A stretch of 10,176 bases of DNA from contig JAKAXI010000046.1 of assembly GCA_021816665.1 (NCBI GenBank), positions 1 through 10,176 on the forward strand, read 5' to 3'. A model generated the notes under the pieces. It had not been told where the DNA came from. It saw only the letters and a list, made by a program, of their open reading frames with translations, and searched no databases. Both the position numbers and the translations under genes were made by a program. Origin of the DNA: Bacillota bacterium. GTDB taxonomy: Bacteria; Bacillota; Bacilli; Alicyclobacillales; Alicyclobacillaceae. This document shows, piece after piece, positions 2,423 to 9,780 of the stretch. Each line of letters begins with the position of its first letter. Positions within the stretch are counted from its first letter, which is position 1.

Positions 2423-4186
2423 GTGGAAGTCCCGCACCGAAATGCTCAGGCAAGGCGCGTTCTACTCGGCATCCTGACGCTTGGCGGGAACGGTCTGATT
2501 CTAAATTCGCTCCTCCACCTGTTCTCGTTAAGTGCCGGGCCCAAGTTCATCCTGTTCCTGTTTATTATGGTGCTGTTCGCCGGTACATCGAGGTTGTCGA
2601 TCCCGTTGCCAAGCGGCGCAAACTGGCGGCCTGGCCTTCTGTTATTGATGCCCGCCATGTTCGTACTACCGACCTGGCAAGTTCCGCTCGTAGGCATTCC
2701 AGGGCTGATTCTGCTGGCTCCAAAAGGCCAGTGGAAATGGACTCGCTACCCGCGAACGTTTGCGCACGTCGCGCTTGGCCTGTCTGCCGGTTCCCTGGTC
2801 TTCCACCTGGGGCTGACTCTTCGTCTATTCGAGTCTCATCACGTGCTCGGCCACACAATGACAGCTGCAGGACTGGCGCTCCTGACTCACCTTGTCGTCA
2901 ACCGCGTGCTGTCCGCACTCATTGTGGCAACCAGACAGCAACGGTCGTTTACACTGCAGCTGCGCTTGGTGGCGGGCGAACTGCACTGGGGCTACTTCGC
3001 TTCGTATATGGTCATACTTTCTACTTTCGTAGTTTCTATGACACACCTGTGGTGGGCGCTCGTGCTGAACGCCAGCATTCAACTTGGCCTCTACAAAATG
3101 ATGTCGTACTATCAGATGCTCCAAGAGAGTGAACAGCGCTATCGGTCTCTGAAAGAGCACCACCCGGACGGGATTTGTTCGCTCGATCTGCGAGGCAATT
3201 TTGTCACGCAAAACCCTGCATTTCGGAAACTCCTGGGGTATTCGGATGGTGTACTGTTTGGCAAGAACATCGTGGACCTGATCGACCGCACAGACGCTAC
3301 CGCGGAGGGCGCCTGCCGCGTACTTCTGTCCGGCGACGTGGACGGAGAAGTGCTGCTCTCGCTGCGCCACTACGAAGGGATGACTGTCGAAGTAAATTGT
3401 ACGAGCGTCCCCATTGTCGTGGAAGGGCGCCGCGCAGGCTTGTACCTGATCGTCAAAGATGTCGCTCTGCAACGGCGAGCAGAAGAACTGGTTGTACAGA
3501 CGGAGAAGATGACGATTGTCGGCCAACTCGCCGCAGGCGTTGCGCACGAGATCCGCAATCCACTCACGTCGCTGAAAGGTTTTGTTCAGTTAATGCGGTC
3601 CTCCGGCGTGCCAGAAGCTCAGCAGCGCTACCTCAACATCATGGAAGATGAACTTGACCGCATCGAAGTCGTCGCAGGTGAGTTTCTGATGTTGGCGCGA
3701 CCTCACGCAGTGCACATAGCCCGTGTAGACCTGCGCACCACTGTGCGTGACGTTGCAGCGCTGTTGACGACTTTGGCGACGATGCGCGGCATCCAGATCC
3801 AAACGGAATACTGCGGGGACGTTCCGCCGCTCGAATGCGACGAAAACCAACTCAAGCAAGTGCTCATCAACGTGGCCAAAAACGGGATCGAGGCGATGGA
3901 TGCTGGGACCCTGACCATTCGCCTGAGCAGCAACCAGACCTGCGTTTGGATTGAAGTTGAAGACGAGGGTGTCGGCATCCCGGAAGACGCTTTGCCAAAG
4001 CTAGGTTCACCATTCTACACCACCAAGCCGCAGGGGACGGGCCTGGGGCTGACAGTCAGCCAGAAAATCATCGCGTCGTACAACGGAGATATGCAAATTC
4101 AAAGTCGCGCCGGACGCGGTACAACCGTGACCATCTCCCTGCCCGCACCTGTCTCAGACAACTTGCCCGTGCTCGCGGACGTGTAG
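2423..4186 (+). CDS. Membrane-bound PAS-domain sensor histidine kinase
   Basis: A two-component sensor kinase of 587 residues. Residues about 12-210 hold roughly six or seven hydrophobic segments, forming a membrane sensor region. A short linker (YQMLQESEQRYRSL) leads to a PAS domain (about 235-350). The HisKA domain follows, with the phospho-acceptor H375 in VAHEIRNPLTSLKGF. The HATPase domain has an N-box around N483-N487, G1 DEGVGIP (514-520), FYTTK (531-535) and G2 GTGLGL (538-543). All key residues are intact. The GTG start at 2423 has a GAGGTGA site a few bases upstream. No response regulator gene is adjacent. The HisKA sequence resembles Bacillus sporulation-type kinases, so feeding a remote phosphorelay is plausible but inferred. 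Its signal is unknown. The gene converges on dabA. Confidence 0.93.
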   Translation: MEVPHRNAQARRVLLGILTLGGNGLILNSLLHLFSLSAGPKFILFLFIMVLFAGTSRLSIPLPSGANWRPGLLLLMPAMFVLPTWQVPLVGIPGLILLAPKGQWKWTRYPRTFAHVALGLSAGSLVFHLGLTLRLFESHHVLGHTMTAAGLALLTHLVVNRVLSALIVATRQQRSFTLQLRLVAGELHWGYFASYMVILSTFVVSMTHLWWALVLNASIQLGLYKMMSYYQMLQESEQRYRSLKEHHPDGICSLDLRGNFVTQNPAFRKLLGYSDGVLFGKNIVDLIDRTDATAEGACRVLLSGDVDGEVLLSLRHYEGMTVEVNCTSVPIVVEGRRAGLYLIVKDVALQRRAEELVVQTEKMTIVGQLAAGVAHEIRNPLTSLKGFVQLMRSSGVPEAQQRYLNIMEDELDRIEVVAGEFLMLARPHAVHIARVDLRTTVRDVAALLTTLATMRGIQIQTEYCGDVPPLECDENQLKQVLINVAKNGIEAMDAGTLTIRLSSNQTCVWIEVEDEGVGIPEDALPKLGSPFYTTKPQGTGLGLTVSQKIIASYNGDMQIQSRAGRGTTVTISLPAPVSDNLPVLADV

Positions 4187-4243: not shown

Positions 4244-6934
4244 TCATCTGTTCTCTGCACCGAGCGTGTGCCAACCCGTCTGTGGGTCGAGAACTGCAAA
4301 CCGGAGCCAACCCAAAGAAATCTTCTGGTGGAAATCTGGTAGACCGTCGAGCACTTGGCGCACATGAGTGAGCGGCGCCTCGACGACAATCAGCAGGCGC
4401 AGCGGCGCGTGATACGGAACTCCATCGGCCGACATGACACTCTGCACTGGCAAACCGGTCAACAGGTCACTGCCATTGCCTTGCATCACACCAATCCCGG
4501 ACGTCACCGTCTGCGTCGTCTTGTCCCCACTCCCGTAAGCACTCGCTGCGACAGTCGACGCATAGTATTGCAGGTTGATCCACTGCGCGACAACGCCCGG
4601 TCCGGCGAGAATACCCGCGAGAATCTGTCCGTCTTTGTCCTGTCCCCAATCGTAGCTGTGCAAAAATGCCCGCCCGTGCAAGTCCAATCCCTTCGTCAAG
4701 TCGCGCCGCCCGATCACGAAAGCCGCGTTTCGGGCCAACCCCCACTCTGGACGCGTTTCGCTCCAGTCATAGGCGTGCCGGGCTGTGCGCAGGTCCCGAC
4801 CGTGGTTGCCGAGGTCCGCACTTGGCAGATACGCTAGGCGCTCAGCCGTTACGTCCTCAGACACTGCTGGCACAGCACGTTGCACGGTTTCGAGAGCCGC
4901 TTGGGCCATTGGACTGAGGAGCGGTTTGTCGTCGAGAAAGCGGAGTTCGTCAGTCGTCGTAATGTGTTCCATGGCGGCGAACACGGTCGTCTCCGGGATT
5001 CTGACTCCACGCTCAGCCAGTCCTGCTCTTACATCCGGATCGTTACAAATAGCGCTGAAGACCTTGGCGTTTGCGGCACCAGAGGCACCGCCGCAGGCAC
5101 CGCAGTCGAGCGCCGAAGCGTACGGGTTGTTTGCGCTCTGGCTGCCGTGTCCACAGACGACAACGAGCGGTGCAAAGTGGTCGGTCAGCCCGATCGAGCG
5201 CAGAGTGGCGTGCACGTAGTCAATCTGGTCTGCCAGCGGGATCCCGACCGTGAGACCGTTCGCTGGCTTATCAGCCGTCTGCTCTGTTGGGGCAGACTGA
5301 GGTTTCACCTGCCAGCCGTTGTCCGCACCACCAGGCATGAGGTTGCGAATCTGGTTCATGAGCGAACCTGTGCTACCAGGCAGAACGCTGCGAGCGAGTG
5401 CCGACAAGCCAAGCCAAACCCCGCTAACTTCCGGCAGCGCCAAACTGGCAAACGAATCGCCTTTCACGCGCTTGAACGCCTGGCGGAGTGGGTCGAGAGC
5501 GGCAAAGGGGGTCACGTGATCCGCTACATCTTGCGGGTCAACAGGCCGCCGAACGATATGCCTGGGTTTGGCGATGACCGGTAGAGCAGGATGCATGTGC
5601 GTTCCCACCGCGTCCTGCAACGCGATCGGCAGTCCAAAGAAACCTGCCACGCCGAAAGTTTCAAAAAGTCCACTCTGCTCCAGACGGCGGCGAATTGGTT
5701 CAGACCGCACATCGATGCAGAACAGAAATTGTGCCTCCGGAACAGGGGACACCGCTCCCCTCTCGCCACTTGCGTCGAGCGCGGGACGCTCCGAATTGCA
5801 GAGCGTTTCGTGCAGACGAGCGCTATACGTGTCTTCCCACGCCTCCAAGTAGAGACGGCGCACCGTAAAGTCGTCAAATCTCCGAGCAAACTGAAGCCGC
5901 GCAGTTTGTTCACGCTGTGGCATGCCATCCCACGCCTCGATCGGCGTACCTCCCCAAACCTCCCATGCCACCAGGCAATCTACCAGGTCCAGTAAGCCTG
6001 ACAAGTCCTCGCCTGGCATTCTGCCGCGCGACAGCGGCAAGTGAGGTGCGACGAGTGCCCACTCCAAGGAAAGGCGGACTGCCATGTAATCGAACAGCAG
6101 GTTCGCGTCGCTCGCCTCATTCGCCGCCCGCCAGCGAATCATCCCCGCCCACCCTGGCAGCCGCAACAGACTGTCGCGCAGGTACGTCACGGCATCAACC
6201 TGCGTGACGTCGAGCAGGCGCAATGCCTGTGACAGGGCAAGCTCTGCATCCTCGGGCCAGTCTTGGAGCCGGCGGCGAACGCTGCGCGGAAGGGCGGGAT
6301 CGACTGTGACCAACTGCCTCCACGCCCGATAAAAACCGCGCTCCTTGTGCGGCATCGACCATCCAGACTGCCCTTCGTCGAGATAGAGTTTGCACCACTT
6401 GGTCACGTGGTAGTTGAGATCCCGGCCATACGAACCACGACCGAGTTGCTCTAACTGAGTGCTCCGCGCCACAATCGGCGTATGGTCATCCAGTGCGAGA
6501 CGGCGGAGGTCACGCGCCGTTCGCTCCACTTCGGGGTCGCTGCGCCTTGTCGCAGGCAGCGGTGAGAGTTTGAGCGCGCCGTTGCAATACACCTCGGTCA
6601 CATCGCGTGGCAATCTCGCCTCGACGCGGTCCAGCCAGTCTGCCAAGCGGCGTTCGAGCAAAACGGGGTCAATCTCACCTGCCAGGAACGCACTTTGCAG
6701 GACTTCCGCACTCGGATACAGGTCAATCCCGTGCTCCCTCTGCAATTCCTCCGCGACCTTCTCGAACGCTTGGTTCTCCAGCCCATACCAAGGCGACCTT
6801 GCGGCAAACGCCGTGATCGGCCAAAGTGGCGCAACTGCTCGCTCTGCTTCTCGAAGTGCATGCTCGAGGTTCGATGTCGGCAGGTGTTTCGATTCGGTTT
6901 GGCTGTGTTGAATTTGCGTGTTAGACGACGTCAT
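4244..6934 (-). CDS. dabA: DabA/MpsB, zinc-binding subunit of an inorganic carbon transporter (DUF2309)
   Basis: A full-length DUF2309 protein of 896 residues. With DabB it is known to form a membrane complex that accumulates inorganic carbon (CO2 or bicarbonate), driven by an ion gradient; the Staphylococcus counterpart is MpsB. DabA is distantly related to beta-carbonic anhydrases. The expected zinc site is intact: C406 and D408 with R410 in FLFCIDVRSEP, H596 in VVVCGHGSQS, and C611 in LDCGACGG. H596 and C611 are 15 residues apart, as in the characterised DabA. No transmembrane helix is evident, so it should sit on the cytoplasmic face bound to DabB. The ATG at 6934 overlaps the end of dabB by 14 nt, which suggests translational coupling. 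It is the last gene of the minus-strand cluster, 57 bp from the convergent kinase gene. No strong terminator follows; only a weak hairpin lies at about 4225-4240. Confidence 0.96.
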   Translation of the reverse strand: MTSSNTQIQHSQTESKHLPTSNLEHALREAERAVAPLWPITAFAARSPWYGLENQAFEKVAEELQREHGIDLYPSAEVLQSAFLAGEIDPVLLERRLADWLDRVEARLPRDVTEVYCNGALKLSPLPATRRSDPEVERTARDLRRLALDDHTPIVARSTQLEQLGRGSYGRDLNYHVTKWCKLYLDEGQSGWSMPHKERGFYRAWRQLVTVDPALPRSVRRRLQDWPEDAELALSQALRLLDVTQVDAVTYLRDSLLRLPGWAGMIRWRAANEASDANLLFDYMAVRLSLEWALVAPHLPLSRGRMPGEDLSGLLDLVDCLVAWEVWGGTPIEAWDGMPQREQTARLQFARRFDDFTVRRLYLEAWEDTYSARLHETLCNSERPALDASGERGAVSPVPEAQFLFCIDVRSEPIRRRLEQSGLFETFGVAGFFGLPIALQDAVGTHMHPALPVIAKPRHIVRRPVDPQDVADHVTPFAALDPLRQAFKRVKGDSFASLALPEVSGVWLGLSALARSVLPGSTGSLMNQIRNLMPGGADNGWQVKPQSAPTEQTADKPANGLTVGIPLADQIDYVHATLRSIGLTDHFAPLVVVCGHGSQSANNPYASALDCGACGGASGAANAKVFSAICNDPDVRAGLAERGVRIPETTVFAAMEHITTTDELRFLDDKPLLSPMAQAALETVQRAVPAVSEDVTAERLAYLPSADLGNHGRDLRTARHAYDWSETRPEWGLARNAAFVIGRRDLTKGLDLHGRAFLHSYDWGQDKDGQILAGILAGPGVVAQWINLQYYASTVAASAYGSGDKTTQTVTSGIGVMQGNGSDLLTGLPVQSVMSADGVPYHAPLRLLIVVEAPLTHVRQVLDGLPDFHQKISLGWLRFAVLDPQTGWHTLGAENR

Positions 6935-8522
6935 GTACGTTCACTCTCCGTTCCCGCACCTGTTGCGACGGTCTGTTCGACGGTTTCGGCTCCGGCTCGG
7001 CGGCAAGCGCACGCACTGCTACGAAGACAGAACGACTGGGTTCGCCGAGCCACACCAGCCACAGATACAACCGTGCCGCGACAACTCCCGGGGCAAACCG
7101 TCGCAGAAGCGCAAGGCCGAAAGTCGATCCGACGGCTACGCCGAGAAACACCGCCGTCATGACCTGTGCGCCTGGATGAAGCACAGTGCTCGACACCCCG
7201 CGGCGCAACAAGTCCGTGATCCCGACTTGCACGAGCATGAACACCGCCAACACCGCAGCCGTGAGGCCAAGCGCAATCAGGCGAATGCTTGTTTGGCGAG
7301 CGACAGTGGCAATCTGCCGCAGGGCCAAGGCGACGCTCCAGGCAAGTAGCGCTGCACTGAGGATGCGGTCACTGTGCAGCCCCGTCAGTGCTACGTAGAT
7401 AACACCAAATGCCGCTCCGCCAAGGACAGAGAAGGTAAACGACAGCAGTTGCGACGACTCCGGTTTGTCGGTGCCCACGGCCATCGCTTTCGAACCGGTT
7501 TTGGCCAGAGGTTTCGTCACTGCTGACCCGGATTGCAGGAACAAAGTAGACTTGAAAAACCCGTGCAAAATGAGGTGAATAATGGCCGCTGTATACGCTC
7601 CAATTGCGCACTGCAGCAACATGAACCCCATCTGGGCGATGGTCGAACCGATCAACTGGCGCTTGTAATCGGCGTGCACCAGCGCCACACCGGCACCACG
7701 CAAGATGGAAAGCACGGCTACCGCGAACAGGAGCCAGACTGCCCAGCCGCTGTGAAAGGCTGGCGAGAAACGGGCCAGCAAGATGCCGCCCATGTTCACA
7801 AAACCGGCATGCATCACAGCCGAGACCGGCGTCGGCGCGGCGACGCTGTCCAGCAGCCAGCGCGAAAACGGCCACTGAGCAGCCGGGGCAATAGCCGCCG
7901 CCACAAGCAAGCCGTCGAACACGAACGAAGAACTCAGCGGCAGGTGCGCGTGACTGAGCGCCTGGAACGCTACAGTCAGCGACCACGTGTGCGTCGCCGA
8001 GTGCAGCCAGACCGCGACCGCGATGAGCGCCGCGGCCCCGACCCCGAGCGTCACGAGCGTCTCCCGGCTGGCAACCACCGCATCCCGTCCTCGGTTGGTG
8101 AGCCGCTGCAACAGGGATAATCCAACCACTGCCGCCGTCCACCCGACAACCAGCCAGCGCAGGTCATTCACCAACCAAAGCTCGGCGAGCACGTCGAGGA
8201 CGATGGTCAAAGCCAAGAAATATTTGCGGTACGCGGCACTTCCAAGCAGGTATCGGACCGAAAACTTCTCCACCACCAGCGCAAGCAGTGTCACATACAC
8301 AGCGAAGACCCAGCCGAGTCGGTTTGTGGCCCAAGGTCCGATATGCGCATGTCCGGCAGCCATGCTGAGGCTGACGACAGCGATGACAAACGGGATCGCA
8401 AAGAGGTTCGCATGCACCCGGATGTACCGCAGCGGCACGCGATCTGTCAGGAACAGCAGTCCGCTCACGGCTGTAAGGCCAAGCGAAGCCAAGTATGCGA
8501 TAAGGAAGACTGATGCGCTCAC
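6921..8522 (-). CDS. dabB: DabB/MpsA, ion-translocating membrane subunit of the carbon transporter (NuoL/MrpA-like)
   Basis: A 533-residue polytopic membrane protein of the proton-conducting NADH dehydrogenase subunit 5/MrpA family. Hydrophobic segments fill residues about 1-500, followed by a charged tail. The family core is visible: APTPVSAVMHAGFVNMGG (229-246), HADYKRQLIGSTIAQMGFM (283-301) and HGFFKSTLFLQSGSA (320-334); K324 is a candidate ion-path lysine. In DAB/Mps systems this subunit conducts protons or sodium ions to power hydration or uptake of inorganic carbon by DabA. The adjacent overlapping dabA gene separates it from a complex I or Mrp subunit, since no nuo or mrp neighbours are present. 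The GTG start at 8522 has an AGAGGAGAG site about 9 nt upstream. It follows the carbonic-anhydrase-like gene after 103 bp. Confidence 0.95.
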   Translation of the reverse strand: MSASVFLIAYLASLGLTAVSGLLFLTDRVPLRYIRVHANLFAIPFVIAVVSLSMAAGHAHIGPWATNRLGWVFAVYVTLLALVVEKFSVRYLLGSAAYRKYFLALTIVLDVLAELWLVNDLRWLVVGWTAAVVGLSLLQRLTNRGRDAVVASRETLVTLGVGAAALIAVAVWLHSATHTWSLTVAFQALSHAHLPLSSSFVFDGLLVAAAIAPAAQWPFSRWLLDSVAAPTPVSAVMHAGFVNMGGILLARFSPAFHSGWAVWLLFAVAVLSILRGAGVALVHADYKRQLIGSTIAQMGFMLLQCAIGAYTAAIIHLILHGFFKSTLFLQSGSAVTKPLAKTGSKAMAVGTDKPESSQLLSFTFSVLGGAAFGVIYVALTGLHSDRILSAALLAWSVALALRQIATVARQTSIRLIALGLTAAVLAVFMLVQVGITDLLRRGVSSTVLHPGAQVMTAVFLGVAVGSTFGLALLRRFAPGVVAARLYLWLVWLGEPSRSVFVAVRALAAEPEPKPSNRPSQQVRERRVNVHDVV

Positions 8523-8625: not shown

Positions 8626-9231
8626 CTAAATCTGCTCGCAAACACCTTCGGCCGGACGGTAAACAAATCCGGAGACCCGTACCGAGTCGGGCAGCAGGGG
8701 GTGGTCCGAAATTACCTGAACCGTTTGCTTGACCCGCTGGCGGATGTCGCCCGTGCCGAACCACTCATCGGGATCGACATTCAAGACGTGTTGCATTAGG
8801 TACTGAGCGGCCTCTGCAGCGGGCGATTCGCTGAGCTGGCTTCTGAACACAGGCTGTGACAAGGCAGTACTCCTGTCGTAGCCCACAACCACTACCTCCA
8901 CCGCGCCCGAAGTATAGGCGACACTTGCCACGATGCTTCTCATCAAGGAGCCGTAGGCGTCCCAGATCCAAGCGTCTGCGCAGCGCAACACCTCAAGGCG
9001 CACTTTGCCAGGTTTCACTTCGAGGTGGCCTGACTCCACAGGGCCTGACTTCACTTCAACGTTTCCGGACTCCACAGGGCCAGGCTTCACTTGAACGTTG
9101 CCGCTTTGAGCGCCTGAGGAAACGAGCTCTTGGACGGCGTTCTCAAACCCTTCATCGTCCGCAATATCTTGAATCAGAATCACTGTGCCACTGGCGACCT
9201 TAGCGTCGGTGCGTAAAATTTGAGTCGTCAA
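8626..9231 (-). CDS. Beta-carbonic-anhydrase-like protein lacking the zinc ligands
   Basis: A 201-residue protein. Its frame resembles the YtiB-type beta-carbonic anhydrases of Firmicutes. VILIQDIAD (17-25) aligns with the strand that normally ends in Cys-x-Asp-x-Arg. FGSIMRSI-like YGSLMRSIVASV (93-104) is followed by VEVVVVGYDRSTA (111-123), in the place of V-V-G-H-x-x-C-G. The C-terminus keeps VKQTVQVISDHPLLPDSVRVSGFVY in spirit (about 167-191). In this alignment the zinc Cys is Q21, the zinc His is Y118 and the second zinc Cys is S121; the Asp-Arg dyad is also lost. It is therefore probably not an active hydratase. Between the first strand and the conserved core sit three 12-residue repeats (42-77). 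The TTG start at 9231 has AAGGGAG about 9 nt upstream; an overlapping ATG at 9236 stops after two codons. The location between mpsC and dabB suggests a structural or regulatory role in carbon uptake. Confidence 0.72.
   Translation of the reverse strand: MTTQILRTDAKVASGTVILIQDIADDEGFENAVQELVSSGAQSGNVQVKPGPVESGNVEVKSGPVESGHLEVKPGKVRLEVLRCADAWIWDAYGSLMRSIVASVAYTSGAVEVVVVGYDRSTALSQPVFRSQLSESPAAEAAQYLMQHVLNVDPDEWFGTGDIRQRVKQTVQVISDHPLLPDSVRVSGFVYRPAEGVCEQI
9001..9108 (-). repeat. Three in-frame 36-bp tandem repeats inside the carbonic-anhydrase-like gene
   Basis: Three consecutive 36-bp units occupy 9073-9108, 9037-9072 and 9001-9036. They encode QSGNVQVKPGPV, ESGNVEVKSGPV and ESGHLEVKPGKV (residues 42-77). 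The first two units are closest, and the third has diverged more. The unit length keeps the frame, so copy-number change would alter only a loop or spacer. The alternating polar/hydrophobic pattern suggests short beta-strands separated by G-P turns. Confidence 0.93.
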
Positions 9232-9288
9232 GTCATCCGTCTCCCTTCCCGCATGGACTGCCGTTCAACCGCCGAGGGTCGAGGCTAC

Positions 9289-9334
9289 AAAAAACCGGAG
9301 CGCAGTGTGCCAGGTTGGCACTTGCCTCCGGTTT
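9289..9334 (-). terminator. Intrinsic terminator or attenuator between mpsC and the carbonic-anhydrase-like gene
   Basis: On the minus strand, a 9-bp stem AAACCGGAG (9334-9326) / CTCCGGTTT (9300-9292) encloses an inner stem GTGCCA (9321-9316) / TGGCAC (9312-9307). It is followed by six T residues (9294-9289, partly within the stem). This is the standard form of a Rho-independent terminator. It lies about 80 bp after the mpsC stop and about 57 bp before the TTG start of the next gene, so it can end the mpsC transcript or attenuate reading into the rest of the cluster. Confidence 0.85.
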
Positions 9335-9339
9335 GTGTC

Positions 9340-9363
9340 GGGCTCCCCTTACCAGGGGTTCCC
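9340..9363 (-). other. GC-rich leader hairpin with a symmetric purine internal loop
   Basis: Directly 5' of the terminator on the minus strand, GGG-AA-CCCC-TGGTAA-GGGG-AG-CCC (9363-9340) folds into two stacked stems. They are separated by a 2x2 AA/AG internal loop. Tandem A-G/A-A oppositions are common in structured RNA motifs. Only 5 nt separate this hairpin from the terminator stem. It matches no riboswitch consensus I know. Confidence 0.6.
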
Positions 9364-9414: not shown

Positions 9415-9762
9415 CTAGGCGATTTCCCGGTCCAGCATAAACACCATCACGCGCTCTCCTGTGCGGGTGCTGACGTCGGTGAAAAAACTCTGGACTGTAG
9501 CGCCCGTAATCTCGCCCATCAAGGCGTTCAACTGCGTGATCCCGGACTCCACAAGGTCTTGCCTCAATCGTTTTACGGACAGAAGCCCTTCCCTCGTTTT
9601 CGCCAGTTCCTGCTCCGCGGGGGTAAGAACTCCGTGCAGAACGACGATCACCATGTTGCGCAACAAGTCGGTTTTTACTAACACAGACCCGCGCCCGAGG
9701 AATTCTTTCTCCCACTGGGTGAGCGATTTGCTGATGCGGTCTTCGATTGCTCCCTTCGGCAC
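9415..9762 (-). CDS. mpsC: DUF2294 (MpsC-type) protein
   Basis: A small soluble protein of about 115 residues matching the DUF2294/MpsC family. Family features in order are ISKSLTQWEKEFLGRGS (about 9-25 of the ATG-initiated frame), a hydrophobic strand ending in VVLHGVLTPAEQELA, an amphipathic segment with KRLRQDLVES, and a C-terminal TDVSTRTGERVMVFMLDRE. No transmembrane helix is seen. In Staphylococcus the mpsABC genes, named for a cation-translocating, membrane-potential-generating system, lie together; MpsA and MpsB take up bicarbonate, while the molecular role of MpsC is not clear. Here it is the first gene of the cluster. I take the GTG at 9762 as the start because GGAGGTGG (9774-9767) lies just upstream. 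An in-frame ATG at 9780 would put that site inside the gene and abuts the T-run of an upstream terminator. Confidence 0.88.
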   Translation of the reverse strand: MPKGAIEDRISKSLTQWEKEFLGRGSVLVKTDLLRNMVIVVLHGVLTPAEQELAKTREGLLSVKRLRQDLVESGITQLNALMGEITGATVQSFFTDVSTRTGERVMVFMLDREIA

Positions 9763-9780
9763 AGGTCCACCTCCATACAT

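Follow-up and report, generated by a model that had tools for sequence, protein, structure and literature searches.

A carbonic anhydrase homologue without zinc ligands in bicarbonate importer loci of Bacilli tracks a live-type carbonic anhydrase elsewhere in the genome

Introduction

Why would a bicarbonate importer locus carry a carbonic anhydrase (CA) homologue that has lost its zinc site? According to the available text of PMC8552792, the importer MpsAB and CA seldom coexist, having both together "does not really make sense", and their distribution is without a clear explanation. The same source reports that CA co-expressed with MpsAB lowered growth, its authors reasoning that CA wastes the imported bicarbonate. 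It also notes for S. sciuri, B. anthracis and B. subtilis that a putative CA follows directly downstream of MpsAB, and suggests the different cell compartments of spore formers as a reason for keeping both systems.

A preliminary description of the locus studied here knew of no account of such a protein. This does not hold for its Bacillus counterpart YbcF, which the accessible part of PMC5515261 lists as one of three putative CA homologues (for B. subtilis mutants of one, two or all three, the calcite phenotype was very mild) and which PMC13414356, in its available part, terms CA-like. Our literature search, which covered the main texts of largely open-access papers, found no statement in the accessible texts that YbcF lacks a zinc site or tracks a live-type CA. 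Here we use CAL as a working label for importer-linked zinc-less beta-CA look-alikes, Bacillus YbcF included. The E. coli YbcF, a carbamate kinase, is a different protein under the same name.

Results

The window, that is, the whole 10,176-nucleotide stretch of DNA analysed, comes from a genome (G000) of 2.07 Mb that is 72.6% complete and shares its genus code with G032, taken here as Alicyclobacillus sp. ALC3. The gene order is mpsC-CAL-dabB-dabA, with CAL on the same strand as its neighbours (Table 1). The gene sits between mpsC and dabBA. A live-type CA of family PF00484 is encoded elsewhere in the same genome (C143).

Table 1. Features of the CAL locus in the window
Feature	Position	Strand	Evidence
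CAL, zinc-less beta-CA homologue (YbcF-like), 201 aa, TTG start	8626..9231	minus	
dabB, NuoL/MpsA-like membrane subunit, overlaps dabA	6921..8522	minus	PF00361 9.4e-41; NF006373 over cut-off
dabA (MpsB, PF10070), zinc-site residues intact	4244..6934	minus	PF10070 E 1.9e-238; C/D/R/H/C present
mpsC (PF10057, DUF2294)	9415..9780	minus	PF10057 1.7e-36
Terminator-like hairpin and T run, mpsC/CAL intergenic	9289..9334	minus	read directly from sequence
36-bp tandem repeat, 2.7 copies, in-frame; encodes the CAL insert, first half of fold	9007..9103	minus	

The intergenic hairpin had no Rfam match and was absent from the output of a simple terminator scan; the region from 9270 to 9345 folds at a z of -3.08. 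Elsewhere in the window, CCACACG is repeated 14 times at 279-377, and a PAS sensor histidine kinase gene (2423-4186, plus strand) is convergent with dabA. The best NCBIfam matches of this kinase, sporulation kinase KinD among them, all fell below the cut-off.

The window CAL and the ALC3 copy are 87% identical, with a dN/dS of 0.27, or 0.18 when the N-terminal tail and the repeat insert are left out. Because the CAL value is close to those for dabA and dabB, the gene is maintained under purifying selection, and the possibility of a pseudogene was ruled out by the same ratio. The repeat-encoded insert was modelled with low confidence (pLDDT under 50 at residues 52-74). Among 11 CALs compared, it is present solely in the window and in ALC3, and since the ALC3 insert is 5 residues shorter, the insert seems quick to vary.

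The window CAL protein had no Pfam or NCBIfam match over the cut-off, PF00484 being unlisted even at E up to 1, and the PF00484 matches of G000 do not include its locus. A single-sequence search of the PDB gave four weak matches (three CAs and one CS2 hydrolase), the best at E 0.047 and none over the threshold. AlphaFold2 models of the window CAL (pLDDT 70.7) and of a Bacillus tequilensis homologue (pLDDT 77.8) both matched beta-CAs in the PDB, and all 50 structural matches listed for the window model have the beta-CA fold. CS2 hydrolase and COS hydrolase are among the matches of the CAL models. The predicted fold of the window CAL is that of a beta-CA, so that the fold comparison proposed in the preliminary description bears out the scaffold it had recognized.

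To place the zinc site, we used the numbering of the live-type CA of G000, in which the ligands are Cys38, His96 and Cys99. The alignment held 33 dab-linked CAL rows, representing 32 distinct sequences (L055 and L093 come from the same genome); the short G177 copy L073, nearly the same as L117, was left out. As controls, 25 candidate live-type loci were passed through a motif-demanding filter and 24 were kept; L021, which failed, was a chance match, and the split CA L105 was left out. None of the 33 CAL rows keeps any of the Cys/His/Cys ligands, against 24/24 of these motif-filtered controls. An intact zinc site masked by misalignment was ruled out, as the alignment with the 24 live-type CAs recovers no Cys-His-Cys in the window CAL. 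Its ligand columns hold D22 (or Q21), Y118 and S121, confirming that the zinc ligands are replaced. The Asp-Arg dyad had also been described as gone: the Arg is indeed lost (its column holds G28), but the Asp column may still be D26.

Across the 33 CALs, Thr replaces the His ligand in 29, Tyr does so in both the window and the ALC3 copy, and Ala and Asn occur once each. The first-Cys column is Asp in 23 and Gly in 10, the second-Cys column holds seven residue types, and some acidic residues occupy former ligand places. The place of the first ligand is residue 12-14 in 29/33 CALs, 22 in the window and ALC3, and 32 and 35 in the other two, versus residue 38 or later in 24/24 live-type CAs, the N-terminal lengths of the CALs resting on start codons that we chose. 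Judging from the alignment, the window CAL is a beta-CA homologue that has lost the zinc ligands and the dyad Arg, and a loss of hydratase activity is predicted.

The zinc site of the window DabA was rightly described as intact, and its residues are likewise present in 67/67 aligned DabA sequences. The broken dabA of G003 was left out of this count and of the DabA tree (67 of 68). This gene (L052, G003:C1:738174-740562) is split among three reading frames; as G003 is CA-less, it would have neither system unless the break is a sequencing error.

We then looked at which genomes carry CAL. We searched for DabA in three sets of genomes that overlap (41 from the window's family, 250 and 398 from its class), obtaining 68 distinct positives (Bacilli), and scored PF00484 CA in the same 68 genomes. 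CAL was found in 16/19 CA-positive and 0/49 CA-negative genomes (n=68; naive Fisher p 6.6e-13). Such a gene does recur in dab loci, then, in 16/68 DabA-bearing genomes, as the survey suggested at the outset could show. In these counts, G030 is CAL-positive and dab-linked, its CAL lying at the start of a different contig and its mpsC-dabAB at their own contig start. G177 is CA-positive like its relative G348: a frameshift splits its live-type CA gene (G177:C61, L105), which is whole in G348. The CA absence of G034 is weak, as this genome is only 62% complete.

The association is repeated within the DabA tree (67 rows). Among 10 independent pairs differing in CA, CAL in most pairings agrees in 8, opposes in 0 and does not differ in 2; the other pairings gave 7, 0 and 3, respectively, with a median sign-test p of 0.008. 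Supported branches require CAL presence to have switched at least 9 times on this tree, and genus codes g1, g4 and g25 each include CAL-positive and CAL-negative genomes. In the window's family (41 genomes), DabA and PF00484 CA are almost complementary, with 21 genomes having DabA only, 14 CA only, 6 both and 0 neither; CAL was present in 6/6 genomes with both and 0/21 with DabA only. An out-of-sample test on the last 19 genomes added gave CAL in 2/4 CA-positive and 0/15 CA-negative ones. From named genomes, 16/16 CAL loci tested, found regardless of CA, have a PF00484 CA in the genome; 15 of them are new (L078 is G148 again).

Three CA-positive DabA genomes lack CAL (G110, G273 and G358), and DabA is divergent in the first two but not in G358. 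In G273 the contig ends shortly after dabA, and a whole-genome search gave one match, its live-type CA. When the 49 CA-negative DabA genomes were searched in full with the profile, 47 gave no match, and what matched in G265 and G089 were fragments only. G265 has a CAL-like fragment beside dab and a live-CA-like fragment on another contig, which suggests decay of both genes in this genome. In G089, the pieces resemble a live-type CA and lie some 1.2 kb downstream of dabA. An alpha-CA, considered as a confounder, was found in 0/68 DabA genomes. Many CAL-bearing genomes are 4-6 Mb in size, while there are large CA-less genomes without CAL (G019, 5.0 Mb; G004, 4.3 Mb) and small genomes with it (G177/G348, 2.5 Mb). 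Beyond what the preliminary description had in view, CAL correlates most strongly with a live-type CA encoded elsewhere in its genome.

A CAL-only profile was also run over 79 CA-positive, DabA-less genomes, with G188 as control. Four of the 79 (G042, G150, G197 and G220) hold a dead CAL, always in the order MpsC-SbtA-CAL with an SbtA matching PF05982 at E 1.5e-102 or better, and none of the four has any zinc residue. The G042 copy is sister to the dab-linked L115 (100/96), which indicates that the transporter changed while CAL stayed; the G220 copy is weak (43 bits, very long branch). As the SbtA cases were drawn from CA-positive genomes only, they neither add to the CA association nor test it. 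With homologues beside SbtA in DabA-less genomes, CAL as a strict DabA partner was rejected, and the role specific to DabA/DabB proposed earlier is weakened.

MpsC (DUF2294) lies within the retrieved stretch in 61/68 DabA genomes (L027-L074, L106-L124 and the window) and adjoins SbtA in all five SbtA loci examined. Its presence near dabAB in most sampled Bacilli is contrary to a published remark that the two are collocated in staphylococci only. On a plasmid of Anoxybacillus amylolyticus (L142, NZ_CP015439.1), MpsC-SbtA stands without an annotated CAL near luxS. In two Bacillus strains, according to the available text of PMC8552792, it is the second CA gene that lies in the luxS neighbourhood, and a swap of CA for SbtA is possible.

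In Staphylococcus pettenkoferi, a mobilizable plasmid of 44 kb (L143, NZ_CP066063.1) carries dabB-dabA-CAL-mpsC between two IS6 transposases, its CAL annotated as a hypothetical protein. A near-identity search of 72,556 plasmids matched the cassette in this record alone, and its CAL is equal or nearly equal to those of G177 and G348. The other DabA genomes of code g25, which we infer to be Staphylococcus or near kin, have dab and mpsC without CAL and no PF00484 CA. Another S. pettenkoferi strain is listed with a CA in the accessible part of PMC8567241.

CAL homologues were gathered by genome searches, and scanning named genomes turned up 25 CAL loci, from Alicyclobacillus, Aneurinibacillus, Bacillus, Cytobacillus and Virgibacillus among others. 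DabA is within the retrieved stretch in 24/25, the remaining one, L076, beginning at a contig end; MpsC was not found in the retrieved stretch of two, L076 and L097. In every intact locus with both genes on one contig, CAL and dabA are co-oriented.

The B. tequilensis and B. atrophaeus CALs stand at the position of ybcF in B. subtilis, and by this position we take them to be YbcF. Like these copies, which have no zinc ligands, the window CAL belongs to a DabAB/MpsC cluster. It differs from them in being only 24% identical to both, in carrying the repeat insert, and in lying upstream of dabB (likewise in G032, G068 and G318) rather than downstream of dabA. The C-x-P-E-F stretch common in other CALs is also missing. 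With the YtiB-type CAs (PF00484), a live-type paralogue of which is the C143 gene, the window CAL shares the fold and the C-terminal HPLxP...V.G motif, but it lacks the zinc ligands, the dyad Arg and a PF00484 match, and has a shorter N-terminus. Its identity is 19-29% to other CALs (G032 excepted) and 25-29% to YtiB-type CAs. In a 57-row tree all CALs fall on one side of a branch (97/89), with the window pair on a long branch; once the SbtA-linked CALs are added, the position of the pair lacks resolution. Because its identity is no higher to CALs than to live-type CAs and its placement is unstable in the larger tree, the window CAL may represent a dead CA of separate origin that came to occupy the same type of locus, by convergence rather than orthology.

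Discussion

What could a dead CA do in an importer operon? Our first-ranked explanation, offered tentatively, is that CAL is a non-catalytic regulator of importer modules (MpsC plus DabAB or SbtA), kept where a live-type CA shares the cytoplasm and damping that CA. The importer would bring bicarbonate into a cytoplasm that also holds a live-type beta-CA; this enzyme would turn the bicarbonate back into CO2, which leaks out, and the job of CAL would be to prevent that. The likeliest route would be the formation of mixed oligomers between the live CA and CAL, a homologue of it that lacks zinc ligands and mostly has a shorter N-terminus, with CA activity lowered for as long as the importer genes are expressed. 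We rank control of the live CA first because CAL persists when one importer type is exchanged for another, and because CAL is a CA homologue that is absent where CA is absent. The joint remnants in G265 and the lower growth reported when CA was co-expressed with MpsAB (PMC8552792) are also in its favour. The three CA-positive DabA genomes without CAL, the 2/4 found in the out-of-sample test and the very mild calcite phenotype of the B. subtilis mutants (PMC5515261) weigh against it. The N-terminal stretch of beta-CAs is part of the dimer contact, and its shortening in CALs could weaken pairing, which speaks against mixed oligomers. In its boldest form, that importer operons of Bacilli encode a dedicated anti-CA, a dead enzyme that pairs with the CA of the cell, switches it off during pumping whichever the importer, and is lost together with the CA, the proposal is rather doubtful.

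The patterns of CAL presence cannot tell which protein CAL touches. Ranked second, and somewhat unlikely, is that CAL acts on the importer itself, binding bicarbonate/CO2 or MpsC and gating DabAB or SbtA as SbtB gates the cyanobacterial SbtA, and becoming dispensable where the importer is the sole, always-on carbon supply. The link to CA would equally be expected if CA-bearing cells can do without an importer, and CAL is on the same strand as dabA in intact loci and directly adjoins SbtA in four. There is a precedent in SbtB and SbtC, which, in the accessible text of PMC13360264, restrain SbtA and limit leakage. Like CAL, each is a small gene beside a bicarbonate transporter, and both limit the loss of inorganic carbon; unlike CAL, they are not presented there as homologues of CA, SbtC being a small putative membrane protein and SbtB PII-like (PMC10991534, as far as available). 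On the other side, this reading requires a single protein that gates two unrelated importers, DabAB and SbtA.

The window DabA and DabB are homologues of DAB2/MpsAB, with the DabA zinc-site residues intact. The host of the solved DAB2 complex presumably lacks the gene arrangement described here. That complex, in the part of PMC13144422 available, consists of two subunits, DabA and DabB, with no CAL, which also counts against gating of the importer.

Third, the association with CA might be indirect, with transferable CAL-type dab cassettes settling in CA-bearing, often larger genomes, or with a shared reason such as the spore-former compartments mentioned in the accessible text of PMC8552792, and no functional tie. 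The complete cassette between IS6 transposases on the mobilizable S. pettenkoferi plasmid, with a CAL (nearly) equal to those of G177/G348, is what such transfer would look like, and the 4-6 Mb size of many CAL-bearing genomes fits as well. We nevertheless consider it improbable: CAL switches within the DabA tree, with at least 9 forced changes and both states in g1, g4 and g25, the large CA-less G019 and G004 lack CAL, the small G177/G348 have it, and G265 holds remnants of CAL and CA together. CS2 and COS hydrolases keep their zinc ligands, and the ligand positions vary among CALs, unlike an active site, so it is very unlikely that CAL has kept an enzymatic function based on another metal or substrate, as these beta-CA-fold hydrolases among its structural matches and the acidic residues at some old ligand places might suggest.

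Taken together, the observation in the preliminary description is confirmed and its interpretation is partly supported. That Bacillus YbcF is a putative CA was already known; the pattern linking CAL to a live-type CA is new. The gene listed as a putative CA beside MpsAB has no zinc site in the close relatives aligned, so YbcF should not count as a CA in annotation, and it marks 16/19 genomes with both systems in this sample. CAL is thereby a specific candidate for how cells run MpsAB and CA together, the puzzle raised in the available text of PMC8552792, and is of relevance to carbon supply in bacteria and to the transplanting of bicarbonate pumps into CA-containing cells.
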